The position numbers were made by a program, and so were the translations under genes. 64,000 bases of DNA from Nitratireductor soli. Its GTDB lineage: Bacteria > Pseudomonadota > Alphaproteobacteria > Rhizobiales > Rhizobiaceae. Every line of letters begins with the position of its first letter. Positions within the stretch are counted from its first letter, which is position 1. Positions 4,420 through 18,289 of this stretch are shown here, piece by piece. The notes under the pieces are model-generated. The model ran no database searches. It was not told the origin of the DNA and saw nothing but the letters and a program-made list of their open reading frames with translations. The DNA is taken from assembly GCF_001050155.1 (NCBI RefSeq), contig NZ_LFVY01000005.1:248001-312000 (forward strand). The letters are read 5' to 3'.

Positions 4420-6666
4420 TTACGCGGTGAGACGAAGATAGAGGGCGGGCAGCTTTTCCGGCAGGCGCTCGATGGCGCTGAACGCGACCACGTTGCGGCG
4501 TCCGAAAATCCGCTCGGCATAGGATTCGGCATCGCAATCGAGCGCGATGCAGAACACGTCGATCCCGTCGCGGTTGAGCGCATGGACCGCCGCGCGGGCA
4601 TCCTCGACCAGGTAATCCCCATCATCGACATCGACATCCGACGGCTCGCCGTCGGTGATCAGCAACAGCAGCCGGCGGTAAGTCTGCTGAGAGCGCAAAT
4701 CGGCGCCGGCATGGCGGATGGCGGCGCCGAGACGGGTCGACAGGCCGCTCTCGAGCCCGGCCAGCCGCGCCCGCGCCGCGCTGTCATAGGGTTTGGCGAA
4801 ATCCTTGACGCGCAGATAGCGCACATCCTCGCGCGTGTCGGAGCAGAAGGCGGCGATGGCGAACGGATCGCCCAGACCGTCCATGGCCTGCGCCATCAGG
4901 GCCGCGGCGTGGCGCTCGATGTCGAGCACGGTGCGTGCCGCGCCCGACACGTTCTCGCCGGTCGAGCGCGACACGTCGATCAGCAGATGCACGCAGAGAT
5001 CGCGGCTGCGCCGCTCGTAGCGGCCGTGCACGCGCGGGTCGGGCGTTTGCCCCATCCGCCGCGTGATCGACGCCTCGATGCAGGCATCGATGTCGAGGAA
5101 CTCGCCGTCGGTCTGCCGCCGCACGCGCTCCTGCCGGCTGATGCGCGACGCGCTGATCAGGGCCGTCAGGCGCTGGGTCAGATCGGCGCGCTCGTCGAGC
5201 AGCCGCGCGATCGACGCGGCCGAGGCGGTCTTCGGCGCGTATTCGCGCAGGGCGCACCATTCCGGCCGCTCGCGCCCCGTCGCATGGTCGAATTCGGCAT
5301 AGCGGGCGACCAGCACGCCATTCTCCTCCTCGGCGCGCAGGGAGACGCGGTTGACCTCGTCCTGTGGATCGGGATCGGGCTCCTGGCGGTCCGGCTCGCC
5401 ATCGTCGCGCTCCTCGGTCTCGATGCGCGCGGTCTCGATCATCTGCTCCATCTCGAACGCCGCCTGGTCCTCCTGGTCGGCGAAATCCCAGATGCCCAGA
5501 TTGTCGTCGCGATAGGCCGGCTGGACCACATAGGTCTTGGCGTCGAACTGCAATCGCATCTGGCCCAGATCGTTGCCGAGCAGGCCGCCGATGCGGCGGC
5601 TGAAATCCTGGTCGGCGGGGTCGGCGGCGAAAGCCTCCTCGAACAGCGCCCTGCCCTTTGCCACCCAGCCGTCCGGGTCGGCGTAATCGCCATCGACCAG
5701 GGCGCGCGCCAGCCGCGCCATCAGGCCGACGGCGATGGCAGCACCACCGGGCCGTGCCCCATGGAACGGACGCCACAGCGCGGCCAGGCCCGGCAGCTCG
5801 GCCATGGCGAGGCGCTCGACGCGCGCGTCCTCGATCAGCGAGATCACGGCGACCTGCAGCGGTTTCAGCTTGCCGGCCGGAAACGGGCTTTTCGTGAAGC
5901 GGTGGTGCGCGCCGACATGGGCCAGCGCGGCGTGATACAGATTGCGGCTGTCCTCGGCGCTGAAACCGGGGAACGCCGCCGGCACGCGAACCACCCCGCC
6001 GCCGAAGCCGACCCGCCGGCGCAGATGGTCGGGTGCCTCGCGCGGCACCTCGCGGATGGCCGGCCGCAGACCCCATAGCGCCGTGTAATAGGATTTGAGC
6101 CGTCCCTCCAGCGCCAGGAAGTCGGTCATGCCCGCCTCCCGGTCAAGGAAATGGCGGGCCTCGTCATCCTCGCGCCGGAAGAAGCGCAGGCGCCGCTCGG
6201 GATCGCCGCGCCCAGCGGCAAGCCCCATGCGGACAAAGGCCTCGAAACCGGCGCCATCGAGGATGGCCAGAAGCTTGCCGGTGCCCTCCAGCAGCGGTGG
6301 CACCGATTCCGGCGCCTGGCGGGCAACCAGCTCGACCAGTTCGAACCAGCGCGTCAGCACCATCTGCTCTGCCGGTTTCCCGGCGGCGGCAAGCGCCGCC
6401 TCGGGCAAGGCCGCGGCCGCCCGCCGGCCGGCGCGGATGGCCAGTTCCGAGACGGCGCGGCCGAGGCGGAGCGCGGCTTGCGGGGACGCCAGCAAGGCCA
6501 GTTCGACGCCATGCCGGCGATAGGCGGCGGCGATCGCGCCGCCATAGCCCGCCTGCTCGATCCGGCGGCGCGCGGCGCGCCATTGCTCGCCCCATTCGCC
6601 GGGAAAAGCCTGATTTTCCTTCAGGGAGAGGGCCGGATCGGCGGCAGCGGCATGCCTGGCATTCAT
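4420..6666 (-). CDS. VWA-domain protein (NorD/CbbO/CoxE type)
   Basis: 748-residue protein. The C-terminal third is a von Willebrand A domain with the metal-site motif DVSRST (in LLIDVSRSTGEN) and LLLITDGEPSDVDVDDGDY. The middle is rich in acidic residues (ETEERDDGEPDRQEPDPDPQ), as in NorD and CbbO. A longer frame open upstream is rejected because it would run through the whole AAA+ gene; the ATG at 6666 lies 11 bases after that gene's stop. In known pairs (NorQ-NorD, CbbQ-CbbO, CoxD-CoxE) such proteins act with a MoxR-type ATPase to remodel or mature a partner enzyme. Here the partner is probably the amidase AmiE encoded upstream in the same operon. Confidence 0.85.
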   Translation of the reverse strand: MNARHAAAADPALSLKENQAFPGEWGEQWRAARRRIEQAGYGGAIAAAYRRHGVELALLASPQAALRLGRAVSELAIRAGRRAAAALPEAALAAAGKPAEQMVLTRWFELVELVARQAPESVPPLLEGTGKLLAILDGAGFEAFVRMGLAAGRGDPERRLRFFRREDDEARHFLDREAGMTDFLALEGRLKSYYTALWGLRPAIREVPREAPDHLRRRVGFGGGVVRVPAAFPGFSAEDSRNLYHAALAHVGAHHRFTKSPFPAGKLKPLQVAVISLIEDARVERLAMAELPGLAALWRPFHGARPGGAAIAVGLMARLARALVDGDYADPDGWVAKGRALFEEAFAADPADQDFSRRIGGLLGNDLGQMRLQFDAKTYVVQPAYRDDNLGIWDFADQEDQAAFEMEQMIETARIETEERDDGEPDRQEPDPDPQDEVNRVSLRAEEENGVLVARYAEFDHATGRERPEWCALREYAPKTASAASIARLLDERADLTQRLTALISASRISRQERVRRQTDGEFLDIDACIEASITRRMGQTPDPRVHGRYERRSRDLCVHLLIDVSRSTGENVSGAARTVLDIERHAAALMAQAMDGLGDPFAIAAFCSDTREDVRYLRVKDFAKPYDSAARARLAGLESGLSTRLGAAIRHAGADLRSQQTYRRLLLLITDGEPSDVDVDDGDYLVEDARAAVHALNRDGIDVFCIALDCDAESYAERIFGRRNVVAFSAIERLPEKLPALYLRLTA

Positions 6667-6677
6667 CGGCGCTGGCC

Positions 6678-7517
6678 TCACATGCAGGCGGCGATCGCCG
6701 CCGTCAGCGCGTCGCGCAGTTCCGGGTCGTCGGTGATCGGCAGCACCATCGCCACCTGGCAGGCGTCGGCCAGCGGAATGCCCTTGGCGGCGAGCAGCCC
6801 GGCATTGATCAGCATGCGGGTCGAGGCGCCCTCGTCCAGGCCGTGGCCCTTGAGGTTGCGCGAGCGCTGGGCGATGCGCACCAGCGTGTCGGCGATGCGC
6901 CGCTCGACGCCGGCCTCGCGGGCGACGATCTCCGCTTCGATGGCCGGTTCGGGATAGGAGAAGGCAATCGCCCCGAAACGCTGCTTGGTCGATTCCTTCA
7001 GATCCTTCAGCACGCTCTGGTAGCCGGGGTTGTAGGAGATGACGACCTGGAAATCCGGATGGGCGGGCAGCACCTCGTTCTTCTTTTCCAGCGGCAGGAT
7101 GCGCCGGTCGTCGGTCAGCGAATGGATCACCACCGTGGTGTCCTGGCGCGCCTCGACGATCTCGTCGAGATAGCAGATGGCGCCGAGCCGGACGGCCAGC
7201 GTCAGCGGCCCGTCGTGCCAGACGGTCCCGTCGGCGTCGAGCAGGTAGCGGCCGACCAGGTCGGAGGCCGTCATGTCCTCGTGGCACGAAACGGTGATCA
7301 GCGGCCGCTTGAGCCGCCAGGCCATGTGCTCGACGAAGCGCGTCTTGCCGCAGCCGGTCGGCCCCTTCAGCATGATCGGCATGCGCGCCTGATAGGCGGC
7401 GTCGAACAGGGCGATTTCCTGCCCGACGGGCCGATAATAAGGTTCGCTGCCGATGCGGAACTCAGCCAGATAATCTGTTTGCGCGGCGATGGCCTCGGCG
7501 CCGGACATGGAGGTCAT
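6678..7517 (-). CDS. MoxR-family AAA+ ATPase (NorQ/CbbQ type, AmiB-like role)
   Basis: 279-residue AAA+ ATPase with Walker A GPTGCGKT, Walker B ICYLDEIVEA and a sensor region in VVISYNPGYQ. The start chosen is the ATG at 7517 behind AAAGGA; earlier codons would add residues unlike the family. It is 111 bases downstream of amiE and 11 bases before the VWA gene. Pseudomonas amidase operons also encode an ATPase (AmiB) beside amiE. This protein looks closer to NorQ/CbbQ, so it probably forms a remodelling complex with the VWA protein. The target and purpose are inferred, not shown. Confidence 0.87.
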   Translation of the reverse strand: MTSMSGAEAIAAQTDYLAEFRIGSEPYYRPVGQEIALFDAAYQARMPIMLKGPTGCGKTRFVEHMAWRLKRPLITVSCHEDMTASDLVGRYLLDADGTVWHDGPLTLAVRLGAICYLDEIVEARQDTTVVIHSLTDDRRILPLEKKNEVLPAHPDFQVVISYNPGYQSVLKDLKESTKQRFGAIAFSYPEPAIEAEIVAREAGVERRIADTLVRIAQRSRNLKGHGLDEGASTRMLINAGLLAAKGIPLADACQVAMVLPITDDPELRDALTAAIAACM

Positions 7518-7542
7518 GCGTCGTTCGTCCTTTCGGGTTTCG

Positions 7543-7609
7543 CGCCGCAGCGCCTTGGAATGCGGCGCTGCGGCGTCCGGGAGGATGCCCGCACGAAGTC
7601 GCGCGGGCA
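7543..7609 (-). other. Two hairpins between amiE and the AAA+ gene
   Basis: In the 111-base gap, CGCCGCAGCGCC and its complement form a perfect 12-base stem with a 9-base loop (7543-7575). A second stem, TGCCCGC with GCGGGCA, spans 7586-7609. Neither has a T-run on the minus strand. They may protect the amiE message or lower readthrough into the two accessory genes. Confidence 0.5.
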
Positions 7610-7628
7610 CGGGTTGTGCGATGAAACC

Positions 7629-8666
7629 TCAGCGATGCCCGGAACCGTTGTTGGGAATGCCGTCGATGGGACATTCCTCGGTTCCGACGCTGGAGCGCGT
7701 CATGGCCTCGACCATCTCGCGGGTGCCCTCGGGATCGGTGATCCAGTTTTGGTAGAAGGTGTACGGGCAGACCGCGTGACCGCGCTCGTCGTCGCCGGAA
7801 TTGATCAAGCCGGTATAGCCGCGATGCACGAGCTTGAAGAGATGGTTCTGCGACTGCATGTTCTTGCGCTGGTCGCGGATCGCCGAAACCGACAATTGCC
7901 CATACTGGATGCCGTTTTCCTCGGTGCCGCATTCGCCCAGCGTGCGGCCGTCGAAGCCGATGATCGCCGAATGGCCGAAATAGGAATAGACACCGTCGAA
8001 GCCGGCCGCATTGGCCACCGCGACATAGCAATTGTTGGCCCAGGCCATCGATTTCGAGATCAGGATCTGCTGCTCCTTGGCCGGATACATGTAGCCCTGG
8101 CAGCGGATGATCAGCTCGGCGCCGCGCATGGCGCAATCGCGCCAGATTTCCGGATAATTGCCGTCGTCGCAGATGATCAGGCTGATCTTCAGCCCCTTCG
8201 GCCCCTCCGAGACATAGGTGCAATCGCCCGGATACCAGCCCTCGATCGGCACCCAGGGCATGATCTTGCGGTACTTCTGGACGATCTCACCCTTGTTGTT
8301 CATCAGGATGAGGGTGTTGTAGGGCGCCTTGTTCGGATGATCCTCGTGGCGCTCGCCGGTCAGCGAGAAGACGCCCCAGGTGTTGGCCTTGATGCAGGCC
8401 TCGGCGAAGATCGCCGTCTCCTCGCCGGGCACCTGCGAGGCGGTCTCGTACATCTCCTTGGAATCGTACATGATCCCGTGCGTCGAATATTCGGGGAAGA
8501 TGACCAGGTCCATGCCCGGCAGGCCGATCTTCATTCCCTGGACCATGTCCGCGATGTTGCGGGCATTGGCCAGCACCTCCTCACGCGTGTGCAGGCGCGG
8601 CATCTTGTAGTTGACGACCGCGACGCCGACCGTGTCCTTGCTGCTCGAAATATCGCCGTGATACAT
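7629..8666 (-). CDS. amiE: Aliphatic amidase AmiE
   Basis: 345-residue cytoplasmic amidase of the nitrilase superfamily that hydrolyses short-chain aliphatic amides to the carboxylic acid and ammonia. The catalytic residues fall at the positions known from Pseudomonas AmiE: Glu59 in FPEYSTHG, Lys134 in KYRKIMPW and Cys166 in [11 protein letters not shown]; Glu142 in PIEGWYPG is also kept. Length matches the family. The start ATG has a strong AGGAGGAA ribosome-binding site. It follows five ABC-importer genes by 36 bases and precedes the AAA+/VWA pair, so uptake and hydrolysis are encoded together. Control is probably by AmiC/AmiR through the leader at 13517-13763. Confidence 0.95.
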
Positions 8667-8702: not shown

Positions 8703-9410
8703 TCACACGACGAGATGCTCGTGGATAAGATCGTCGGTCAGGCCGGATATCGCGCCGGCGACCGAAACGCTGCCGCGGTTCAGAATGGCGAAGCGGTTCG
8801 AGGCGCGGCGGGCGAATTTCAGGTTCTGCTCGACCAGGACGATGGTCAGCCCCTTGTCGCGGTTGAGGTCGATCAGCACCTGCTCGATCTGCTCGACGAT
8901 GTTCGGCTGGATGCCTTCCGTCGGTTCGTCGAGCAGCAGGATCTTCGGCTCCGACAGCAGCGCCCGGGCGATCGCCAATTGCTGCTGCTGGCCGCCCGAC
9001 AGATTGCCGCCGCGCCGGTTGATGAACTCCCTGAGGATCGGGAACAGCTCCAGAACCCATTCGGCGATGCGGCCCTGGTCCGGCCCCGGTTTCGATTGCG
9101 CGGCGAAGGTGCCGACAAGCAAATTCTCACGCACGGTGAAGGCCGGCAGGATGCCGCGCCCCTGCGGCACGTAGCCGAGCCCGGCACAGGCCCGTTCATG
9201 GGTGGGCAGGCCGATCAGTTCGCTGCCGTCGAGGCGGATCGAGCCGGAGGTGCGGCTCATCAGGCCGAGGATCGTCCGCAGCAGCGTCGTCTTGCCGACG
9301 CCGTTGCGTCCGAGCACGCTCAGGAACTCGCCCGTGCCGACCGACAGCGAGACCGCCTGCAGCGCCCGGCTGCGGCCATAGAAACCGTCGAGATTTGAAA
9401 GCTCAAGCAT
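8703..9410 (-). CDS. Amide/urea-type ABC transporter ATPase (UrtE/LivF type)
   Basis: 235-residue ATPase of the branched-chain amino acid/urea importer class. Walker A GRNGVGKTT, signature LSGGQQQQLAIARAL and Walker B ILLLDEPTEGI are all present. The short length without a C-terminal regulatory domain is typical of LivF/UrtE. Its start overlaps the previous ATPase gene by 8 bases, which suggests translational coupling. It is the second of two different ATPases in this importer. Confidence 0.92.
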   Translation of the reverse strand: MLELSNLDGFYGRSRALQAVSLSVGTGEFLSVLGRNGVGKTTLLRTILGLMSRTSGSIRLDGSELIGLPTHERACAGLGYVPQGRGILPAFTVRENLLVGTFAAQSKPGPDQGRIAEWVLELFPILREFINRRGGNLSGGQQQQLAIARALLSEPKILLLDEPTEGIQPNIVEQIEQVLIDLNRDKGLTIVLVEQNLKFARRASNRFAILNRGSVSVAGAISGLTDDLIHEHLVV

Positions 9411-10170
9411 GGCCGATCCCTCCCGAGCCGAGATAGGCTTCGCGCACCTGCGGATCGCTGGAAATCTCCTTCAGCGACCCCTCGGCCAGAAGCTTGCCCT
9501 GGTGCATCACCGAGATCGTCTCGGCGATGTCGCGCACGAAGCCCATATCGTGCTCGACGACGATCAGCGTGTGCTGGCCGCGCAGGCGGTTGAACAGTTC
9601 GGCCGTCTTGCCGGTCTCCTGGCCGGTCATGCCGGCGGTCGGCTCGTCCATCAGGATCAGCGCCGGGTCCTGGGCCAGGATCAGGGCGATCTCCAGCCAT
9701 TGCGTCTGTCCGTGCGACAGATGGGCGGCGGCGCTGTCGAGCGCGTCGCTCAGGCCGACCAGTTCGGCCAGCCGCTCGAGCTCGTCATCGTCCATGCTGC
9801 CGCCGAAGCGGACGAGGTTGGCCAGAACGCCGGTCTGGCGCGACTGGCCGATGTGCAGATTCTCGCGCACGGTCAGTTCACGAAACACGCTCGGCACCTG
9901 GAATTTGCGGCCGATGCCGGCGCGGGCGATTTCGTATTCCTTCAGTTTGTCGATCGAACGCCCCTCGAAGCGAATTTCGCCGGACGTGGCCTGCGTCTTG
10001 CCGCAGATCAGGTCGAGTGCCGTCGTCTTGCCGGCGCCGTTCGGGCCGATCAGGCAGCGCAGTTCGCCCTTGCCGACGGCCAGGTCGAGCCCGGCCACCG
10101 CCACGAAGCCGCCGAAAGAAACGCTGACATCGTTCAGCGCCAGCTGGATTTCGCCGTCGTCGCTCATCAT
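9403..10170 (-). CDS. Amide/urea-type ABC transporter ATPase (UrtD/LivG type)
   Basis: 255-residue ATPase with Walker A GPNGAGKTT, Walker B LILMDEPTAGM and a signature reading LSHGQ instead of LSGGQ, as often seen in UrtD. The C-terminal residues after the switch histidine (VVEHDMGFVRD) form the extra LivG/UrtD tail. The start is the ATG at 10170, which overlaps the upstream permease stop as ATGA. A longer open frame upstream is only a shadow of the permease gene. Confidence 0.92.
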   Translation of the reverse strand: MMSDDGEIQLALNDVSVSFGGFVAVAGLDLAVGKGELRCLIGPNGAGKTTALDLICGKTQATSGEIRFEGRSIDKLKEYEIARAGIGRKFQVPSVFRELTVRENLHIGQSRQTGVLANLVRFGGSMDDDELERLAELVGLSDALDSAAAHLSHGQTQWLEIALILAQDPALILMDEPTAGMTGQETGKTAELFNRLRGQHTLIVVEHDMGFVRDIAETISVMHQGKLLAEGSLKEISSDPQVREAYLGSGGIGHA

Positions 10171-11330
10171 GCGCCCTCCCCGTGGGTGATCGCCTCGCCG
10201 CCCGGCTTGGCCGCCGTGGCAGGCTGCCCCGCCGGCTGGCGCTGGAAGCGCGCCGTCAGCATTTCGAAAGCGCCGGCAATGCCCTTCGGCAGGAACAGGA
10301 CGGTAAGCACGAACAGGCCGCCCATGATCAGCATCCAGCTTTCGAGGAAGGTTTCCGATTCCGACAGCGCGCCCTGCACGCCGGTGACGATCAACGCGCC
10401 GAGTGCGGCGCCGAGCAGGCTCTGGCGCCCGCCGACCGCGACCCAGATGACGACGGACAGGCTGAGCGGTACGCCGAGAAAGGTCGGCGAGGCAAACTCC
10501 ATGACGATGGTGTAGAGCATGCCGGCCAGACCGGCGATGCCGGCCGAGACGGCGAAGATGAAGATCTTGTAGAGCGCCACGTCGTAGCCGAAGAAGCGGA
10601 CCCGGTCCTCCTGGTCGCGGATCGCCTGCAGGATCATGCCCGTCTTGCTGCGGGTGATGGCCAGCGACAGGAACAGCACCGCCGACAGGCACAGTGCGAC
10701 CAGATAATAGGTCGAGGAGGAATAGGCGTCGAAGGACAGGCCCGCCACCTCGAACTGGGCAAGGTCGGTGATGCCGTTGAAGCCGCCGGTGAAGCGCTGC
10801 TGGTCGATGATCACCAGATTGACCACCACCATGGCGGCCAGCGTGATGATCGCCGCGTAGACGCCGGTGACGCGGCCGCGGAACATGAACCAGCCAAGCA
10901 GCGCCGCGAACGTCGCCGGCACGAGAATTCCGGCGACCAGCGCAAAGGTCGTCGAATGGAACGGTGCCCAGAACCAGGGCAGTTCGGTGACGTTGTTCCA
11001 GACCATGAAGTCCGGCAGACCTTCACTGCCGGTGTGAACCGGGACGGTGCCGAGCTTCAGCGCCATCGCCATGCAGTAGGAGCCGAGGCCGAACGTGGTC
11101 GCCTGGCCGAGATTGAGGATGCCGGCATAGCCCCAGGACAGGCTGAGCGCCACGGCCAGCATGGCGAACACCAGGTAGCGCGAATATTTGTTGAGCAGGA
11201 ACGCGTCGTCGAGAAACAGTGGAACGAGCAGGATGGCGATGCAGAACGCCAGGTAGAGCAGCGTTTGTTGAGCGGATTTTCCGGTCAGGAGCATGATGGG
11301 TCTGGATCCTTCTGTCCGGGCGGCGTTCAC
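10167..11330 (-). CDS. Amide/urea-type ABC transporter permease (UrtC/LivM type)
   Basis: 387-residue membrane protein with about 10 hydrophobic segments and the LivM/UrtC hallmark GYAGILNLGQATTFGLGSY. The start is a GTG whose last two bases are shared with the stop of the preceding permease (GTGA), so the two permeases are translationally coupled. The C-terminal tail (FQRQPAGQPATAAKPGG) is low complexity. With the LivH-type partner it forms the channel for the substrate bound by the protein encoded at 12269-13516. Confidence 0.92.
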   Translation of the reverse strand: MNAARTEGSRPIMLLTGKSAQQTLLYLAFCIAILLVPLFLDDAFLLNKYSRYLVFAMLAVALSLSWGYAGILNLGQATTFGLGSYCMAMALKLGTVPVHTGSEGLPDFMVWNNVTELPWFWAPFHSTTFALVAGILVPATFAALLGWFMFRGRVTGVYAAIITLAAMVVVNLVIIDQQRFTGGFNGITDLAQFEVAGLSFDAYSSSTYYLVALCLSAVLFLSLAITRSKTGMILQAIRDQEDRVRFFGYDVALYKIFIFAVSAGIAGLAGMLYTIVMEFASPTFLGVPLSLSVVIWVAVGGRQSLLGAALGALIVTGVQGALSESETFLESWMLIMGGLFVLTVLFLPKGIAGAFEMLTARFQRQPAGQPATAAKPGGEAITHGEGA

Positions 11331-12196
11331 GAGCGCACACGCGCCGAGAACAGGCCCTGCGGGCGGAAGCGGATGAGGATGACGATGGCCAGCAACACCA
11401 GCGCCTTGGCGATCGTGTCGTTGCTGTGGAAGGCCAGGAAGCCGGTCAGTTCACCGAGAATGCCGGAGCTGGCGACCGTGCCGAACAGGCTTTGCGCGCC
11501 GCCCAGCACCACGACCATGAAGGCATCGACCACATAGGTGGTGCCCATTTCCGGTGAAACGCTCTTCAGCGGCGAGACCAGCGCCCCGGCCAGGCCGGCA
11601 ATGCCTGCCCCGTAAGCAAAGGTCGAGCGGTACACCCTGGCCGAATTGATGCCGAAGCTCGAGGCGATATCGCGGTTTTGCGTGATGGCGCGCAGCTTCA
11701 GGCCGAAGGAAGTGTGCCGGTAGATGTACCAGGTGAGCGCGAACAAACTTAGCGCCAGGCCGAGGATGAACAGCCGGTAGGCCGATTCCGTCGCGCCGAA
11801 GATGTTGACGCTGCTGGCGAGCGCCGCCGGCATCTCCACATAGCGCAGTTCGCCACCGGCCGTCAGCCGCACCGCCTGCTGCGCCATCACGCCGATGCCC
11901 CAGGTGGCCAGGATGGTGTCGAGCGGCCGCGCATAGAGATGGCGGATGACGAGCGCCTCGATGATCCAGCCGAACAGCGCCAGGATGATGAAGATCGGCA
12001 CCAGGCTGGCGATCAGGCCGAGGCCGAGCTGGGTTTGCAGGAACCAGGCGCAATAGGCGCCGAGCATGACGAATTCGCCATGCGCCAGATTGATGACGCC
12101 GGTGACGCCGTAGATGATGGCCAGGCCGAGCGCCACCAGCATCAGGATCGATGCGATGCTCAGGCCGGTCAGCAACTGGGATACGACAAGTTCCAT
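11327..12196 (-). CDS. Amide/urea-type ABC transporter permease (UrtB/LivH type)
   Basis: 289-residue LivH/UrtB-type permease with about 8 membrane segments and the family motif YGVTGVINLAHGEFVMLGAY. The ATG at 12196 was chosen over an upstream start because it begins directly at the first hydrophobic helix (MELVVSQLLTGLSIASILML) and has a GTGAG just before it. It lies 72 bases after the binding-protein gene and overlaps the next permease by 4 bases. Confidence 0.92.
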   Translation of the reverse strand: MELVVSQLLTGLSIASILMLVALGLAIIYGVTGVINLAHGEFVMLGAYCAWFLQTQLGLGLIASLVPIFIILALFGWIIEALVIRHLYARPLDTILATWGIGVMAQQAVRLTAGGELRYVEMPAALASSVNIFGATESAYRLFILGLALSLFALTWYIYRHTSFGLKLRAITQNRDIASSFGINSARVYRSTFAYGAGIAGLAGALVSPLKSVSPEMGTTYVVDAFMVVVLGGAQSLFGTVASSGILGELTGFLAFHSNDTIAKALVLLAIVILIRFRPQGLFSARVRS

Positions 12197-12268: not shown

Positions 12269-13516
12269 TCAGACTTCCTTCAAGCCTTCGGCAGTGCAGC
12301 TCTGGTTGGCATAGGCCTTGTAGGGATCGGGCTCCAACCAGTCGGCCGACTGCTTCAGGATCTCGAACTGGCCGTCGGACTTGCAGCGGCCGATCTTCGG
12401 GCGCAGCCAGGCGTGCAGGTTTTCCGGCTCCACCTTGACCAGGCCCTGCGGCGCCTGGAACTGTTCGCCCTTGACCGCCTCGCGGATGGTGTTCGGATCG
12501 ATGTCGCTGGCGGCCAGTTTCTCGACCGCCTGCTTGAACAGGTAGATCTGGAAATAGGATGGTTCGGAGACGAAGTGCGTGACCTTGTCGCCACCCCAGC
12601 GGGAGCGATAGGCCTCGACGAATTTCTGGTTCTCGGGCGAGTCCCAGACCATGAAATACGGCGCCGAGGTGAAGTGGCCGGCGGCCGCCGCGCCACCCAT
12701 GGCCGCCACCTCGTTCTCCGAGGTGGTCAGGCTCGCCATCGGCATCGTTTCGGGGTCGAGGCCGGCCGCATGATATTGCCGGTGCAATGCCACGACGGAA
12801 TCGCCGACCACCGTCGAGAAGATCACATCCGGCTTCTCGGCCTTCAATTTGTTGATGACGGACGAGAACTCCGAGTGGCCGAGCGGCACGTATTCCTCGG
12901 CGACGACTTCGCCGCCGAGTTCGGCGAGCAGCTTCTTGCAGTAATTGTTCTCTTCCTTCGGATAGATGTAGTTCGAGCCGATCAGGTACCAGCGCTTGCC
13001 GAAATTCTCGACCAGCCAGGGCACGAAATCATCCTGCTGCTGGTTCGGCACGGCGCCGGTGTAAATGACGTTCTTCGAGCATTCGCGCCCCTCGTAGAGG
13101 GTCGGATACCAGTAGAGATTGTTCTGTTTCTCGAACACCGGCAGCACCGCCTTGCGGCTGGCCGAGGTGTAGGAGCCGAAGACCGACACGCATTTGTCGG
13201 ACAGCACCAGCTTGCGGGCCTTTTCGGCGAAGGTCGCCGGGTCCGATGCCGGGTCCTCGACGACCGGGACGATCTCCATGCCGTTGACGCCGCCGGCGGC
13301 GTTGATCTCCTCGATCGCCATGATCGTCGCCTTGTTCAGCGATTCCTCGATGATCGCCGTCGTGCCTGTCAGCGAGAACAGGACGCCGACCTTGATCTGG
13401 CCGTCCTGGGCCCGCGCCAGCATGCCGTTCTTCGACCAGATGTGGGGGAAGCCGCCGAGAGAGGCCGCGCCGAGCGCCGCCGTGCCTTGAAGAAACTTAC
13501 GCCGATTGGTTGTCAC
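12269..13516 (-). CDS. Amide/urea ABC transporter substrate-binding protein (UrtA/FmdD-like)
   Basis: 415-residue periplasmic binding protein of the type that binds urea and short-chain amides. It starts at a GTG at 13516 preceded by AGGGAG at ideal distance. The N-terminus is a Tat signal (TNRRKFLQGTAALGAASLGG). The protein is clearly related to AmiC encoded upstream; both share blocks such as FGSYTSASRKAVLP/FGCYTSSSRKAVLP, YWYPTLYEG and SYTSASRKAV-type ligand-site sequences. The exported protein delivers substrate and cytosolic AmiC senses it. A terminator ends only about 15 bases upstream of the start codon, so expression depends on antitermination. Confidence 0.92.
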   Translation of the reverse strand: MTTNRRKFLQGTAALGAASLGGFPHIWSKNGMLARAQDGQIKVGVLFSLTGTTAIIEESLNKATIMAIEEINAAGGVNGMEIVPVVEDPASDPATFAEKARKLVLSDKCVSVFGSYTSASRKAVLPVFEKQNNLYWYPTLYEGRECSKNVIYTGAVPNQQQDDFVPWLVENFGKRWYLIGSNYIYPKEENNYCKKLLAELGGEVVAEEYVPLGHSEFSSVINKLKAEKPDVIFSTVVGDSVVALHRQYHAAGLDPETMPMASLTTSENEVAAMGGAAAAGHFTSAPYFMVWDSPENQKFVEAYRSRWGGDKVTHFVSEPSYFQIYLFKQAVEKLAASDIDPNTIREAVKGEQFQAPQGLVKVEPENLHAWLRPKIGRCKSDGQFEILKQSADWLEPDPYKAYANQSCTAEGLKEV

Positions 13517-13530
13517 CTTTGTCGCTCCCT

Positions 13531-13584
13531 GAAAATAAAAAAGCCCCGAAACGCGCCGCCTCGCGGCAGCTCGTTTCGGGGCTT
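13531..13584 (-). terminator. Leader terminator T2 directly upstream of the binding-protein gene
   Basis: On the minus strand, AAGCCCCGAAACG pairs with CGTTTCGGGGCTT (13 perfect base pairs), and the last paired bases run straight into a T-rich tract (TTTTTTATTTT). It stands about 15 bases before the GTG start and just upstream of its ribosome-binding site. A terminator in this position is an attenuator. Its 5' arm overlaps a small hexaloop hairpin at 13580-13591. Confidence 0.88.
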
Positions 13585-13623
13585 CGTCGCCTCTGATTGT
13601 TTGTTGCGGCAACCTCGCCGCAA
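13580..13623 (-). promoter_or_regulatory. Second hexaloop hairpin pair (possible ANTAR element, variant loops)
   Basis: Two hairpins with 6-base loops precede T2 in the leader RNA. The first, 13604-13623, has stem TTGCGGC/GCCGCAA and loop GAGGUU. The second, 13580-13591, has stem GGC/GCC and loop GACGAA, and its 3' arm is part of the 5' arm of T2. Both loops have G at position 4 but G rather than A at position 1 of the ANTAR consensus. The arrangement copies the first element at 13684-13722. Confidence 0.5.
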
Positions 13624-13648
13624 GCACCTTCACTTTGGTTCAGGCAAC

Positions 13649-13686
13649 AAAAAACCCCACGTCCCGCTCGCGCGAAATCCGTGGGG
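13649..13686 (-). terminator. Leader terminator T1 in the ami leader
   Basis: On the minus strand CCCCACG pairs with CGTGGGG, followed by TTTTTTG. The 5' arm is shared with the second hexaloop hairpin of the ANTAR element (13684-13697), so the two structures exclude each other. This is the arrangement known from ANTAR-controlled leaders. Confidence 0.85.
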
Positions 13687-13722
13687 TCTCGTTACCCGTA
13701 TGTGCGCGGCATCGTTGCCGCG
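13684..13722 (-). promoter_or_regulatory. ANTAR-type antitermination RNA element (dual hexaloop)
   Basis: The leader RNA forms hairpin P1 (13705-13722: CGCGGC, loop AACGAU, GCCGCG) and hairpin P2 (13684-13697: GGGU, loop AACGAG, ACCC), separated by 7 bases. Both loops are hexanucleotides with A at position 1 and G at position 4, the published hallmark of ANTAR-protein binding sites. P2 overlaps the 5' arm of terminator T1. The gene ending 16 bases upstream encodes the ANTAR protein AmiR, the likely ligand. Confidence 0.85.
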
Positions 13723-13734
13723 AATAGCCTCAAA

Positions 13735-13763
13735 AAGCTAGCTAAGAAGTTCGTGCGAGTCAA
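13735..13763 (-). promoter_or_regulatory. Predicted sigma70-type promoter at the end of amiR
   Basis: On the minus strand TTGACT is followed after exactly 17 bases by TAGCTT. It overlaps the last codons of amiR and would start transcription just before hairpin P1. The promoter in front of the NCS1 leader (18261-18289) has the same spacing and the identical -10 box, followed by similar bases (TAGCTTTTTG against TAGCTTTTCG). That repetition is the main support. Confidence 0.6.
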
Positions 13764-14454
13764 TGATCGCATTGGCCACCGCGCCAATGGTCACCCGCCG
13801 CTCCATCGCCTGGCGGCGCAGATAGTTGTAGGCCTCCTCCTCCGTCACGTCCTTCATGCGGATGAGCAGGGATTTCGCCCGTTCGACGCTGCGCATGGTG
13901 CGCAGATTCTCGTCGAGCTTGTCGATCCGGCCGCGCAGGCGCTTCTCGTACAGGAAATGTCCGCGCGCCAGCGCGACGCAGGTCTGCGTCGAGCGCGGCG
14001 TTGCCGGATAATGCATGACGCCGTGGGCGGCGCAATTGTGGATCAGCTGCAGGTCGAGTTCCCCCTCGCCGCAGTCGATCACCACCAATGCCGCCTCCGG
14101 CTCGCCGGGGATCCAGGGAATGCGCTGCGGCAGGTCTTCCGTCAGCGCGCAGAACACCAGGTCGAACTGAACCGGAATCTGCGGCGGCATCGGCCATATG
14201 TGGCGCACATTGCAGCGCAGGCGCTGCAATTCGCGCATCAAACGCTCGCCATCGTCGTCGCGCTGGGCGATGACGGCCACGTTGAGGTCCCAGAAGCTTT
14301 TCTGCTGAGCCTGGACATTCTGCTGGCCGGGCCGGCCGACCGGCTTCTGCGATGGGCCACGCTTGCCCTGGGCGTGATCGTGTCTTGCCATGTTGAGCAT
14401 CTTTTCTCTTGGCCCGATGATACCCGGGCTTCTGGTCAACTGTATTCGAGGCAT
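13738..14454 (-). CDS. amiR: AmiR-like ANTAR-domain transcription antiterminator
   Basis: 238-residue regulator. A pseudo-receiver domain (about residues 50-165; FWDLNVAVIAQRDDDGERLM onward) lacks the normal phosphorylation pattern. A coiled-coil linker (LRGRIDKLDENLRTMRSVER) and a C-terminal ANTAR RNA-binding domain (AKSLLIRMKDVTEEEAYNYL, then VTIGAVANAII) follow. AmiR proteins are held inactive by AmiC and, on release by amides, bind leader RNA and prevent termination. The gene overlaps amiC by 19 bases, as expected for a co-translated partner. The ATG at 14400, behind AAGAGAAAAG, is an alternative start that would shorten the disordered N-terminus. Its target elements lie directly downstream at 13684-13722. 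Confidence 0.9.
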   Translation of the reverse strand: MPRIQLTRSPGIIGPREKMLNMARHDHAQGKRGPSQKPVGRPGQQNVQAQQKSFWDLNVAVIAQRDDDGERLMRELQRLRCNVRHIWPMPPQIPVQFDLVFCALTEDLPQRIPWIPGEPEAALVVIDCGEGELDLQLIHNCAAHGVMHYPATPRSTQTCVALARGHFLYEKRLRGRIDKLDENLRTMRSVERAKSLLIRMKDVTEEEAYNYLRRQAMERRVTIGAVANAIIDSHELLS

Positions 14455-15593
14455 CGGCCATACCCGAGCAGATAAGGGTCCGCCTTCACGCTGGAGGGCG
14501 ATTCATAGACGATGTCGAACTGTCCCTGCCGGTTGGCGCGGCCGATGCGCGTCCACAGATCCGCGTGTCCCCAGACCGGGTTGATCGACACGCCGCCCTG
14601 CGGCGCGTCGAATTCCGACCCCATGACGCTGTCGCGCATGAGATTGGTCTCCATCGAGTTGGTCTTTTCCAGCGTCTTGGCGAACACATTGACCTGAAAA
14701 TACGATGCTTCCAGGCACATATTGGTCGGCTCGTCGTCGCCGTAGCGCTTCTTGTAGCGGTTGACGAAGGTGGTGTTGCTGTCGTTGCCGACACCCTGGA
14801 AATAGGGCGCCGCCGTCAGGTGCCCCTCGCCGACGTCGAAGCCCATGGCGCGCACCTCGGCCTCGGAGGTCGTCAGGCTGGCGATCGGCGTCACCTTCGG
14901 GTCGAGCCCCATATCGGCGTAGGCCTGGTAGAGAAAGGTCGTCGCCTCGCCGACGACCGTCGAGAAGATGACGTCGGGCCTGACCTGTTTTATGTCGCGC
15001 ATGACCGGCGTGAAGGCGCTGCGCTCGGCGCCCAGCCGAACATAGCTTTCGCCGACGACGCTGCCGCCCGAATGGCGGATCAGTTCGCGCATGATGCGGT
15101 TGGATTCGCGCGGATAGATGTAGTCGGATCCGACGAAGTAGAAGCGCGTGCCGTAAAGCTCCATCAGCGTGCGGCAGAGCTGGACGCTGTTCTGGTTCGG
15201 CGTCGCGCCGGTGTAGATGACGTTGGAGGAGAACTCGAAGCCTTCGTAGAGCGTCGGATACCATAACAGGCCGTCCAGCCGCTCGACCACCGGCAGAACC
15301 GCCTTGCGGCTCGACGAGGTGTAACAGCCGAAGATGGTGCTGACGCCGTCCTCGACCATCAGCTTCTTGGCGTACAATCCGTAAGACCGTGAATCCGATC
15401 CCGGATCATAGACGATCGGCTCGACCGGCCGGCCGTTGATGCCACCCTTGTCGTTGATTTCATCGATGGCGGTCAGCGTTCCCCGGAGTTGGGTTTCCTC
15501 GATCACGGCCATGAAGCCGCTGCGCGAGAAAAGAACGCCGACACGCCACGGTTCGGAAGTGTTGCTTGATCGTGTCAACTCACACTCTCCCAT
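14436..15593 (-). CDS. amiC: AmiC-like cytosolic amide sensor / negative regulator
   Basis: 385-residue periplasmic-binding-protein fold without any signal peptide (starts MGECELTRSSNTSEPWRVGV), so it stays in the cytosol. It is strongly similar along its length to the exported binding protein at 12269-13516, including FGCYTSSSRKAVLPV and LLWYPTLYEGFEF. In Pseudomonas AmiC sequesters AmiR until amide binds. The direct overlap with the ANTAR gene supports the same function here. The presence of both a secreted and a cytosolic version of this fold in one locus lets the same ligand class be imported and sensed. Confidence 0.9.
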   Translation of the reverse strand: MGECELTRSSNTSEPWRVGVLFSRSGFMAVIEETQLRGTLTAIDEINDKGGINGRPVEPIVYDPGSDSRSYGLYAKKLMVEDGVSTIFGCYTSSSRKAVLPVVERLDGLLWYPTLYEGFEFSSNVIYTGATPNQNSVQLCRTLMELYGTRFYFVGSDYIYPRESNRIMRELIRHSGGSVVGESYVRLGAERSAFTPVMRDIKQVRPDVIFSTVVGEATTFLYQAYADMGLDPKVTPIASLTTSEAEVRAMGFDVGEGHLTAAPYFQGVGNDSNTTFVNRYKKRYGDDEPTNMCLEASYFQVNVFAKTLEKTNSMETNLMRDSVMGSEFDAPQGGVSINPVWGHADLWTRIGRANRQGQFDIVYESPSSVKADPYLLGYGRCLEYS

Positions 15594-15653: not shown

Positions 15654-16676
15654 TTATGCGTCGCTCGCCAAAAGCTCCTTGAGCTTGTCGTCCAGGAACT
15701 TGACGTCGACCGGGCTCGTGCCCGGACCGCCGGCAAAATGCCCCCAGACGGATTCGATCGGGATCAACGTCGCGTTCGGCATGTGCGACACTTCGATCTC
15801 GCTGTCTTCGGGCGGAAAATACAGATCCGTCCGTCCCGGCATAACATAGGCCTTCGCCTTGATTGCGCCGAGCGCTTTTTTGAGGTCCCCGCCGTAAAGC
15901 GTGTTGGCGCTGATGTCGCCGTTCTGCCAGGTCCACAGCATGGTGAGCAGGTTGTTGGCATCCTTCGGCAGGAAGAAGCCCTCCCAGAACGCCACCAGGA
16001 AATCCTCGAGCGAGGAATAGCCGAGCGTCTTCAGGTCCAGTTCCTGGCGGTAGAAGGTCTGCGAAAAGCCCCAGCCGGCATAGACGCGGGCCATGGCGCG
16101 CAGGCCCCGCTCCGGCTTCTTCTCGTACCAGCCCTCCTTGAAGGCGGCGTCGGCCGTCAGCGCCGCCTTGACGCCTTCGAGGAAGACGAAATTGTGCCGC
16201 GAGCACTTGGCCGAGCCGCAGAACGGCGCGATGCGCTCGACCATGTCGGGGAACATCGCCCCCCAGTGGAAGGTCTGCAGCGCCCCCATCGACCAGCCGG
16301 TCACCAGCTTGATGGTCTCGACACCGAATTTCTTCGTCATCAGCTGGTGCTGGGCGCGAACGTTGTCATAGGCCGTGACATTGGGAAAACGCGATGCGTT
16401 GTAGGGCTCGGGCGTGTTCGACGGCGAGGAGGACAGGCCGTTGCCGAGCATGTTCGGGATGACGATGAAATATTGGTCCGGGTCGAGCGCCATGCCCTTG
16501 CCGACCAGCCATTCATTGTCGACATGCTGGCCCGAATACCAGGTCGGATAGACGATGACGTTGTCGCGTTTGGCGTTGAGCTTGCCAAAGCTCTTGTAGG
16601 CCAGCTTGCAGTCGCGCAGCGTGGCGCCGCTCTGCAGCGTGAAATCACCCAGATCGTAAATTTCATGGTCGGCCAT
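15654..16676 (-). CDS. MetX-like alpha/beta-fold hydrolase or acyltransferase
   Basis: 340-residue alpha/beta-fold protein of the homoserine O-acetyltransferase (MetX) superfamily. The nucleophile elbow GWSMGA contains the serine; the acid and histidine lie in MPGRTDLYFPPEDSE and VWGHFAGGPG. The ATG at 16676 is preferred over an upstream TTG because GGAGGA is at good distance. The second MetX domain residues that bind homoserine cannot be confirmed by eye, so it may be an esterase or amide/nitrile-linked hydrolase. It sits between the NCS1 permease and amiC, so it probably processes the same imported compounds. A hairpin (GGCCGCGC/GCGCGGCC) lies between it and amiC. Confidence 0.8.
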   Translation of the reverse strand: MADHEIYDLGDFTLQSGATLRDCKLAYKSFGKLNAKRDNVIVYPTWYSGQHVDNEWLVGKGMALDPDQYFIVIPNMLGNGLSSSPSNTPEPYNASRFPNVTAYDNVRAQHQLMTKKFGVETIKLVTGWSMGALQTFHWGAMFPDMVERIAPFCGSAKCSRHNFVFLEGVKAALTADAAFKEGWYEKKPERGLRAMARVYAGWGFSQTFYRQELDLKTLGYSSLEDFLVAFWEGFFLPKDANNLLTMLWTWQNGDISANTLYGGDLKKALGAIKAKAYVMPGRTDLYFPPEDSEIEVSHMPNATLIPIESVWGHFAGGPGTSPVDVKFLDDKLKELLASDA

Positions 16677-16744
16677 GGCCGGCAATCCTCCAGTTGAACG
16701 AGATCAGGTGCGAGGGCCGCCCGAAGACGGCCCCGCTCTTTATG

Positions 16745-18061
16745 CTATACGCCGGCGCGGGCCGCCACCGGCGCCCGGTTGATGACCGCGTAGGCGATGC
16801 CCCCGGCAAGCCCGGCGGAGATCGCCGTCGACAGATGCGGCGCGTAGAACTCGACGATGACGGCCACCAGCGAGCCGATGCCCCAGGCGAGGAAGGCCGA
16901 CGGGCGCCAGTCGCGGTCGATCGCGGCGTTGCGGCGGTGGATGTACTGGTCGACCAGGATGATGGCGCCGATCGGCGGCACCAGGATGCCGAGCAGCGAC
17001 AGCCACTGGATGAAGAAGGCCCAGACATTGCCGGCGGCAACCGCGATGCCGATGGCGCCCAGCACGACGGCCAGGACGCGCATGCGGCTGTTGAGGATGC
17101 GCGACCAGCCGGTGGCGGCGTTGTACAGGCAGTGCGCGCAGACCGAGCCGAGATTGCAGTAGAGGAACAGGAAGGCGAGCAGGCTCAGGAACGTCGCCTG
17201 CTTGGCGTTCATGTAGCCGAACATGTTGTCGGCGCCGAACGGGTTGGCGTCCGGCACGGCCAGTGCCGCCGTCATGATGCCGCCGACCAGCATGGCGCAG
17301 AGATTGGCGAAGGGGAAGGCGCTGAAGGTGGCGATGAGCGAGCTTTTCGTGTCCTTCGCCCAGCGGTTGAAGTCCGCCGAAACCGTGCCGGCATCGATGA
17401 ACAGGGCGATCACCACGGTCAGGCCGACGCCCATCGACATGGAGGCCGCGCCATTGTTGCCGGGATAGGCGAAGATCGCCTCCCAGGTGGTGGTCGAGGC
17501 CGAATCGAAGACCACCCAGCCGCCGAGCACGACGAACAGCGGCACCGAGACCAGGCCGATCAGGTGCAGCCCGTGCACGCCGACGAAGGTGATGCCGATG
17601 TAGAGCAGCCCGGCGACGATGGTCATCGCCACATAGTTCAGATCATAGGCGGAACTGATCAGCGCCCCGGTGATGCCGGTCTGCACCGCGTACCAGCCGA
17701 GCAGCAGCGTCGACAGCAGGCCGGACGCCAGCATGTAGCCCTTGCGGCCGAAGACGACGCTGGCCAGCAGCGCGAAGTTCATGCCGCGATTTGTGCCGAG
17801 TATGCCGAGCGCGGCGACATAGGCGAACATGATGATGTTGCCGAGCACCATCGCCCACAGGGCATTGGTGAAGCCCATGCCGAGCACCAGGATGGAGCCG
17901 GTCATGGCGCCCGTGATGATCATCGGGAAGCCGATCCACACGGTGGTGACGGAAAATGTGCTGCGCCGCGCTGCCAGCGGCACCGGCTCGTGTTCGTATT
18001 CTTCGCCAAGGACGTGATCCACCTCGTCGAAGGCTTCGGCCTCATTGCGTGTCTTGCTCAT
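16745..18061 (-). CDS. NCS1-family nucleobase/hydantoin-type permease
   Basis: 438-residue membrane protein with about 12 hydrophobic helices, related to cytosine/purine/hydantoin (NCS1) symporters. Recognisable parts are WIGFPMIITGAMTGSILVLG in the first helix pair and FNRWAKDTKSS. The start is the ATG at 18061 behind GAGGGG; an upstream open stretch belongs to the leader. It is the first gene of the minus-strand amide locus and has its own leader with a terminator and hexaloop hairpin (18150-18254). NCS1 proteins take up nitrogen-rich heterocycles; here an amide-containing substrate is plausible, but unproven. Confidence 0.85.
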   Translation of the reverse strand: MSKTRNEAEAFDEVDHVLGEEYEHEPVPLAARRSTFSVTTVWIGFPMIITGAMTGSILVLGMGFTNALWAMVLGNIIMFAYVAALGILGTNRGMNFALLASVVFGRKGYMLASGLLSTLLLGWYAVQTGITGALISSAYDLNYVAMTIVAGLLYIGITFVGVHGLHLIGLVSVPLFVVLGGWVVFDSASTTTWEAIFAYPGNNGAASMSMGVGLTVVIALFIDAGTVSADFNRWAKDTKSSLIATFSAFPFANLCAMLVGGIMTAALAVPDANPFGADNMFGYMNAKQATFLSLLAFLFLYCNLGSVCAHCLYNAATGWSRILNSRMRVLAVVLGAIGIAVAAGNVWAFFIQWLSLLGILVPPIGAIILVDQYIHRRNAAIDRDWRPSAFLAWGIGSLVAVIVEFYAPHLSTAISAGLAGGIAYAVINRAPVAARAGV

Positions 18062-18149
18062 CGTCAGCCCCTCACTCGCTTTTTTTTGCTTGGTTGCGGC
18101 CCGCCGTTCGCCCTTCTGGGGCCGGCGTGGCGGCATTTATTTGCGCGCA

Positions 18150-18196
18150 AAAGAAAAAGCCTCCCCACGTCTCTGTTTCCAGAGGCATCGGGAGGC
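18150..18196 (-). terminator. Leader terminator upstream of the NCS1 permease
   Basis: On the minus strand GCCTCCC pairs with GGGAGGC around an inner hairpin (CUCUG-GAAA-CAGAG) and is followed by TTTTTCTTTT. It is about 90 bases before the permease start, downstream of the predicted promoter, so it is an attenuator rather than the end of the previous gene. Confidence 0.8.
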
Positions 18197-18218
18197 CTTT
18201 TCGCCTGCGAATTTTTGC

Positions 18219-18254
18219 CGGCTACATTGCCGCGCGTGAAACCGTCATCGGTTT
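18219..18254 (-). promoter_or_regulatory. Hexaloop hairpins in the NCS1 leader (possible ANTAR element)
   Basis: The leader RNA can form a hairpin with stem AAACC/GGUUU and loop GAUGAC (18239-18254), then after 6 bases a hairpin with stem CGGC/GCCG and loop AAUGUA (18219-18232). The second loop has the A1 and G4 of the ANTAR consensus; the first has G1 and G4. Unlike the ami leader, this pair ends 22 bases before the terminator arm. A further hairpin AGGC-GAAAAG-GCCU does overlap that arm, but its loop does not fit. Confidence 0.5.
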
Positions 18255-18260
18255 GTCGAA

Positions 18261-18289
18261 AAGCTAGTCCTGAGGGGCAATTGTGTCAA
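18261..18289 (-). promoter_or_regulatory. Predicted sigma70-type promoter of the NCS1/amide operon
   Basis: On the minus strand TTGACA and TAGCTT are separated by 17 bases. The -35 box is perfect and the -10 box is identical to the one at the end of amiR. Transcription would start close to the first hexaloop hairpin. Confidence 0.6.

Follow-up and report, generated by a model that had tools for sequence, protein, structure and literature searches.

The amidase operon of P. aeruginosa, with the gene order amiE-amiB-amiC-amiR-amiS, follows a single leader. The eut leaders of E. faecalis, which respond to EutV, contain two hairpins (P1 and P2) with hexaloops that carry A in the first position (A1) and G in the fourth (G4), followed by a terminator that overlaps P2; four such elements, before eutP, eutG, eutS and eutA, are described. 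According to PMC3369931, the linkers between the two eut hairpins range from 5 to 12 nt, a linker of 14 nt nearly abolished induction, and a change of A1 (A to U) or G4 (G to A) in either loop lowered EutV induction, A to G not being among the changes given there. According to PMC8934654, EutV is phosphorylated by EutW and the pseudo-receiver of AmiR is controlled by AmiC, and Tyr164 and Met172 are the named contacts of EutV. In Desulfotomaculum acetoxidans, six transcription units are reported to contain at least 13 ANTAR attenuator systems between them, a precedent for several in the same unit.

Here we describe a locus in a 64-kb stretch of DNA (hereafter, the window) from Nitratireductor soli, whose genome comprises 5.1 Mb in 58 contigs. 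The locus resembles that of P. aeruginosa in that it encodes AmiC and AmiR homologues with an aliphatic amidase as the target, and in that the leader combines a dual hairpin with a terminator, the latter likeness resting on the description in PMC3369931. With the E. faecalis eut leaders it shares two A1/G4 hexaloop hairpins, the overlap between P2 and the terminator, and the presence of several elements per locus. Unlike the P. aeruginosa operon, however, the locus includes an importer, two units in series and a regulator operon with its own leader; and whereas the eut elements precede different genes, the two serial units (units 1 and 2) share one leader. The kind of switch is known, as are several elements per locus, and the tandem arrangement is a variant. 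Our literature search, thin in its coverage of subscription papers, found no report of two ANTAR units in series, which is weak evidence of novelty.

All features discussed below lie on the minus strand and are given in window coordinates. In minus-strand order, the cluster comprises genes for a cytosine/purine-type permease (16745..18136; PF02133) and an alpha/beta hydrolase (15654..16685; PF00561), amiC (14436..15593), amiR (13738..14454), the leader, a gene for a urtA-like binding protein (12269..13516; GTG start, with a twin-arginine-like leader, RRKFL, seen by eye), urtB, urtC, urtD and urtE (8703..12196), amiE (7629..8666), and genes for a CbbQ/NorQ-type AAA+ protein (6678..7610; PF07728 and PF08406) and a VWA-domain protein (4420..7287; PF00092). 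The last two coordinate pairs are those of overlapping open reading frames as listed; the true start of the AAA+ gene is probably slightly further in and that of the VWA gene probably near the end of the AAA+ gene. The amiC product is an AmiC-like sensor (Peripla_BP_5/6; E=2e-87 to P. aeruginosa AmiC, 1pea) in which no signal peptide was seen by eye, and the adjoining amiR product combines an AmiR_N pseudo-receiver with an ANTAR domain, both above the Pfam cut-off (E=4e-13 to P. aeruginosa AmiR, 1qo0_D); NCBIfam assigned no family to it. In this AmiR, Tyr and Met occupy the places aligned with EutV Tyr164 and Met172, assuming a numbering offset of 2. The amidase is identified with confidence (NCBIfam NF009802, 709.6 bits against a cut-off of 427). 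UrtB-E score above the NCBIfam urea-transporter cut-offs and the urtA-like protein falls below its own (429.3 vs 492.75); an amide is the presumed substrate of the importer. Between the urtA-like gene and urtB, a G+C-rich hairpin of 11 pairs with ACCUUUUUGA directly after it was noticed (12251-12226), possibly a partial terminator or an RNA stabiliser favouring the binding protein.

The leader between amiR and the urtA-like gene starts with a dual hexaloop (unit 1, 13684..13722) that the preliminary description had presented as a complete ANTAR leader. P1 (CGCGGC-AACGAU-GCCGCG, 13722-13705) has six pairs, P2 (GGGU-AACGAG-ACCC, 13697-13684) has four, and intrinsic terminator 1 (13649..13687) is formed by ACCCCACG...CGUGGGGU and a U-run, its first four bases (13687-13684) being the 3' arm of P2. 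The claimed details are all borne out: A1 and G4 are present in both loops (AACGAU and AACGAG), the linker is indeed 7 bases long (CACAUAC, 13704-13698), and the 5' arm of the terminator is part of the second hairpin. When folded without the terminator sequence, the RNA forms P1 and P2 only, and with this sequence included P2 is displaced by the terminator; both minimum-energy folds draw P1 as a tetraloop with an extra A1-U6 pair. P2 closes with U-A; in NasR SELEX, a closing C-G was favoured. The strict architecture (P1 stem of at least 5 pairs, both loops of the form A..G.., a linker of 4-14 nt, P2 stem of at least 4 pairs, and an overlapping terminator stem of at least 6 pairs with a U-run) has a single occurrence, unit 1, when both strands of the window are scanned, and none in 60 first-order Markov simulations. 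A scan for dual hairpins with any loop yielded 906 dual hairpins in the window, six of them with terminators, against a mean of 745 in the 60 simulations, with 153 followed by terminators, and these counts carry no information on the leader.

To place unit 1 in a comparative context, we collected AmiR-encoding loci from genomes of the order (397 genomes, 35 of them matching at E<=1e-20), the family (394 genomes, 15 at 1e-40) and the class (385 genomes, 2 at 1e-35), the own genome being counted in each, and from further genome contigs (13 loci). The closest named AmiR relative found was that of Nitratireductor indicus (88% identity), and among 10 genomes of the genus a match at E<=1e-20 was detected only in the own genome. 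Altogether 27 related loci were examined, with the near-identical loci L047, L048, L050, L054 and L056 left out, and 22 of these were taken as tandem leaders. Outside the 22 are four distant loci with a single unit each (L007, L008, L010 and L058), in which amiR precedes a urtA-like gene and the AmiR identity is 40-48%, and L057, where the gene after amiR is not urtA-like. In the 22-locus table, terminator 2 of L042, terminator 1 of L043 and of L052, and P2' of L006 (the second hairpin of unit 2, see below) were placed by eye. Two further loci provide additional comparisons: Roseibium aggregatum (L074) has the same gene order as here, and Rhizobium etli 8C-3 (L075) has neither a permease nor a hydrolase gene between the most upstream element (unit 0, see below) and amiC. 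In the R. etli cluster, the VWA gene is followed by one for an acetate-CoA ligase, which fits acetamide as a substrate.

In all 22 tandem loci, the P1 loop contains both A1 and G4 and the other positions vary (AACGAU, AACGGU, AAAGAC, AAUGCG and others); in the P2 loop, G4 is found in 20 of the 22 loci, A1 in 13 and G1 in nine. Beyond this set, P1 of unit 1 has A1 and G4 in R. etli, and both unit 1 loops have A in the fourth position in Roseibium (AACAGC and AAAAGA). The stems covary: in an alignment of 18 distinct unit 1 sequences from the 22 loci (alignment A1; the derived alignment A4 lacks L004, L034 and L036), 97.2% of the cells are paired and six of the 10 pairs are changed on both sides, a number attained by 2 of 500 shuffles, with none of the 500 reaching the covariation score and slid controls giving at most two both-side pairs; because the sequences are related, these shuffle counts are not probabilities. 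In L043, L045 and L059, inspection by eye showed an extra hairpin after the amiR stop and ahead of P1, such as CGAGCG...CGCTCG in L045.

These patterns bear on the simplest alternative, namely that the hairpins are mere terminators of the amiC-amiR transcript, with no antitermination and with the importer operon controlled elsewhere. The location of P1 only about 12-16 nt past the amiR stop in 17 of the 22 loci is what such terminators would show, but A1 and G4 are retained in P1 of every tandem locus even as the stems and the rest of the loop vary, which argues against this reading, since a plain terminator does not need such loops; the promoter-like codon constraint just upstream, described next, is also at odds with it. 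We regard this explanation as scarcely credible.

The preliminary description had placed a promoter before the amidase leader and the end of amiR at the leader edge. The candidate promoter of the importer/amidase operon (13735..13763) consists of TTGACT (13763-13758), a spacer of 17 nt and TAGCTT (13740-13735), and the amiR stop codon TAG is the start of this -10 element, so that the gene does end at the edge of the leader. A second candidate, upstream of the permease-hydrolase-amiC-amiR operon (18261..18289), has TTGACA (18289-18284), the same 17-nt spacing and an identical -10 hexamer (18266-18261), and sites like it were seen by eye upstream of unit 0 in relatives. Sigma-70 consensus scans reported no promoter at either leader, a negative that we do not take as a verdict given the match between the two candidates and the outcome of a codon test. 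Across 63 gap-free codon columns of 24 amiR genes, the third position is invariant in only two, both inside TTGAC, and the same two are invariant in a thinned set of 16 genes; all 24 genes have a T as the last base of the Ile/Val codon within TTGAC, a base that closes 14.0% of the other Ile/Val codons. Moreover, these genes end in TAG (16) or TAA (8) and never in TGA, the stop codon of 23 of 35 long open reading frames, a mechanical set, in the window. As a caution for the promoter reading, TTGAC is kept in L007 although more than 100 nt separate it from the first of the leader hairpins downstream. The codon constraint and the stop codon usage support a putative promoter within the end of amiR, upstream of unit 1.

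A search of the window against Rfam 15 produced no match at gathering scores, and within positions 13500-13800 no ANTAR family appeared even with E allowed to reach 10; the sole Rfam match below E 1 in that segment, mir-7918, falls on terminator 2, far under its gathering score, and was rejected. Covariance models were therefore built here from relatives. The preliminary description had called for a covariance-model check, which we carried out with two models trained on unit 1 only (R1 and R2), R2 being derived from relatives, not from a published eut/nas/ami seed, with this leader and its two closest counterparts (L034 and L036) excluded from training. The three best R2 matches in the 64 kb are unit 1 (46.9 bits), unit 2 (26.1 bits) and unit 0 (22.0 bits), followed by a match at 15.2 bits; R1 gave 18.9 bits for unit 2 and 21.0 bits for unit 0. 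In R. etli 8C-3, which was in no training set, R2 detected unit 1 (41.9 bits), unit 2 (36.7 bits) and unit 0 (37.2 bits) in the same order as here, and in R. aggregatum three elements (28.4, 19.6 and 25.7 bits). In a search of the own genome, all matches except unit 1 were at E of 0.055 or worse, with unit 0 at E=0.17 and unit 2 not among the matches listed (150 of 6855 candidates scored); the E-values of both models are rough owing to a short calibration. In distant controls from Klebsiella, Paraburkholderia and an Azospirillum plasmid (3 of 5 stretches taken from 74 records with amiE), the best R2 match (E=0.069) lay away from any leader. In L077, terminators with P2 hairpins were seen by eye before amiE (GGC-AACAGA-GCC) and before a permease gene (GGGC-AACAGA-GCCC), showing that R2 does not reach the L077 group.

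Unit 1 has the sequence and structural features of the ANTAR dual-hexaloop leader (Ramesh 2012): two hexaloop hairpins of at least 3 pairs, A1 and G4 in both loops, a linker within 5-12 nt, the overlap of P2 with the terminator, and recognition by a covariance model. By its anatomy, it is an ordinary member of this kind of leader, at which AmiR would be expected to bind and cause antitermination. Annotation based on Rfam will miss leaders like this one, textbook-like as it is.

Directly after terminator 1, the same leader contains a second dual hexaloop (unit 2, 13580..13623). Its hairpins P1' (UUGCGGC-GAGGUU-GCCGCAA, 13623-13604) and P2' (GGC-GACGAA-GCC, 13591-13580) are separated by 12 nt, and the 5' arm of intrinsic terminator 2 (13537..13585) contains the 3' arm of P2' (GCC), the U-run ending about 20 nt upstream of the start codon. 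Unit 2 accordingly displays the dual hexaloop, a linker within the 5-12-nt range and the terminator overlap, with G4 in both loops and A1 in neither. P2' with a second terminator is found in 22 of the 27 loci examined, and P1' in 20 of those 22, the exceptions being L035 (none) and L038 (5-nt loop). By a fixed criterion for P1', chosen with the pattern already in view, 17 of the 22 pass, against 0.57 expected from shuffles; in L005 and L006, the hairpin that passes is out of register with the tabulated one. Among relatives, G4 is present in 16 of 20 P1' and 18 of 22 P2' loops and A1 in two of 20 and 11 of 22, respectively, and many of them have linkers of 13-15 nt, with one of 19 nt in L043, exceeding the eut range. 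In R. etli, P1' (CGCGGC-AAAGAA-GCCGCG) has A1 and G4 and the P2' loop (AACAGG) is without G4; in Roseibium, it is the P1' loop (ACCAUA) that is without G4. Covariation of the unit 2 stems was not significant in an alignment of 15 distinct sequences (alignment A2, which leaves out L035 and L038 as lacking P1' and L045 and L046, where the hairpin is in another register); these stems are nearly invariant and hence cannot draw support from covariation. When the whole leader (13515-13737) is folded, the minimum-energy structure has the P1 and P1' regions paired with each other, which would represent a third state but may be an artefact given that both regions are G+C-rich near-palindromes.

One way to read unit 2 is as a decaying duplicate: AmiR would act at unit 1 alone, or perhaps also at unit 0, and terminator 2 would merely trim expression or be bypassed by an elongation complex changed at unit 1. 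The relaxed first loop position, the loss of G4 in some relatives and from the Roseibium P1' loop, the long linkers and the lack of significant covariation all point in this direction. Against decay, the hairpin pair and the terminator overlap persist while the loops change, P1' passes the above criterion far more often than shuffles predict, the R. etli P1' loop has the canonical bases, and unit 2 of N. soli is recognized by R2; furthermore, a strong terminator that is never relieved would be expected to silence the operon. On balance, we consider this explanation unlikely.

A different possibility is that a second ANTAR protein of the cell acts at unit 2, so that the leader would function as a two-signal AND gate. 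The genome encodes three ANTAR proteins, the other candidates being a probable NasT and a second AmiR-like protein, and the preference at loop position 1 differs in unit 2. However, an R1 search over 10.5 kb around the probable nasT gave at best 17.0 bits, for a match in nasS-like coding sequence with a 23-base insertion that we judged to be a chance hit, and over 11 kb around the second amiC/amiR pair R1 reached at most 10.4 bits; these two regions accordingly offer no matching loop signature for another reader, and unit 2 of R. etli resembles an AmiR site. NasT as the reader is left unsupported by the search around its probable gene, and the two-signal gate seems very improbable. The second AmiC/AmiR-like pair is located near peptide-type ABC transporter genes; upstream of it (L073:9070-8960, minus strand) we noticed TTGACA and a hairpin, GGC-AUUUGG-GCC, that overlaps a terminator, with no convincing P1.

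We tentatively prefer the interpretation that unit 2 is read by AmiR, such that the leader would contain two ANTAR-controlled terminators, the second with a relaxed code (G1 for A1), in addition to the element of the regulator operon. Double antitermination would then give steeper induction than a single leader, and A1 and G4 would not be fixed in AmiR targets, as suggested by natural G1 at P2 and by A in place of G at the fourth position (A4). The long linkers of unit 2 have lowered our confidence in this double gate to somewhat less than even. The A4 variant occurs in AmiR-type leaders of L008, L010, L058, L074 and L077, and in both hairpins in L008, L010 (AACAGC/GACAUU in the latter) and unit 1 of L074; by eye, the place of EutV Tyr164 is occupied by Tyr in L008 and L010 and by Phe in L058. 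In the distant AmiR leaders L013, L015, L016, L018 and L024, P2-like loops UAUGUA/UAUGCA with U1 and G4 were also seen by eye, on GGC-GCC or AGC-GCU stems.

The third element, unit 0 (18149..18234), is located before the permease-hydrolase-amiC-amiR operon. The model match (18234-18192) covers P1 (about 18234-18217, loop AAUGUA) and P2 (18206-18193, loop GAAAAG), and the overlapping terminator extends from 18200 to about 18149; A1 and G4 are present in the P1 loop and neither is found in P2. Homologous sites upstream of amiC-amiR were identified in 18 other loci, with too little upstream sequence in L005, L006 and L049 to judge, and in nine of the 10 loci read the next gene is the permease gene or amiC (the reading of the tenth, L044, is ambiguous). 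The P1 loop has A1 and G4 in 17 of the 19 loci (L052 and L055 have a 7-nt loop), a count that leans towards the model because the loci were listed from model matches. The P2 loop is GAAAAG or AAAAAG in five loci, and by eye there is no clean GGC-GCC hexaloop in eight of the 19 (L037-L042, L051 and L044). In an alignment of 14 distinct P1 sequences (alignment A3, 14 of the 19 loci, without L052 and L055 and without the repeats L038, L039 and L051), 88.1% of the cells are paired and the covariation score is reached by one of 500 shuffles, while the three of six pairs changed on both sides are matched by 74 of 500. Given the weak E-values in the own-genome search, the case for unit 0 is built on position and conservation and not on score alone.

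Collectively, these observations make it probable, in our estimate, that the locus encodes an AmiC-AmiR antitermination regulon with three ANTAR-type elements, two gating the importer/amidase operon in series and one through which amiC-amiR would regulate itself. Following published ANTAR work (PMC3369931, PMC8934654, PMC7496416 and PMC8164766), each leader RNA would by default end at its terminator. By analogy with the P. aeruginosa pair, AmiC bound to an amide, the presumed signal, would release AmiR, whose dimer would grip the two hexaloops of an element and hold P2 closed; the 3' strand of P2 would thereby be kept from the terminator, and the polymerase would read on. At unit 0, readthrough would allow the regulator to raise its own supply, and units 1 and 2, being in series, would both have to be passed before the urtABCDE-type importer, amiE and the AAA+ and VWA genes are transcribed, probably on a single transcript reaching the VWA gene. 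Two gates should lower leak and steepen the response. The preliminary description had proposed an AmiC-AmiR switch at this site; the protein families fit this reading, which was nevertheless incomplete, having missed both the second unit and unit 0.

In the literature available to us, the ANTAR code comes mainly from eut and nas leaders. The tandem leaders represent natural variants, in which one copy has A1 and G4, whereas its neighbour has diverged at position 1 with G4 mostly kept. This family could show which loop bases AmiR needs and how serial terminators affect leak and the steepness of the response, and the ANTAR-like element before the amiC-amiR operon, if true, would constitute a feedback loop worth measuring.
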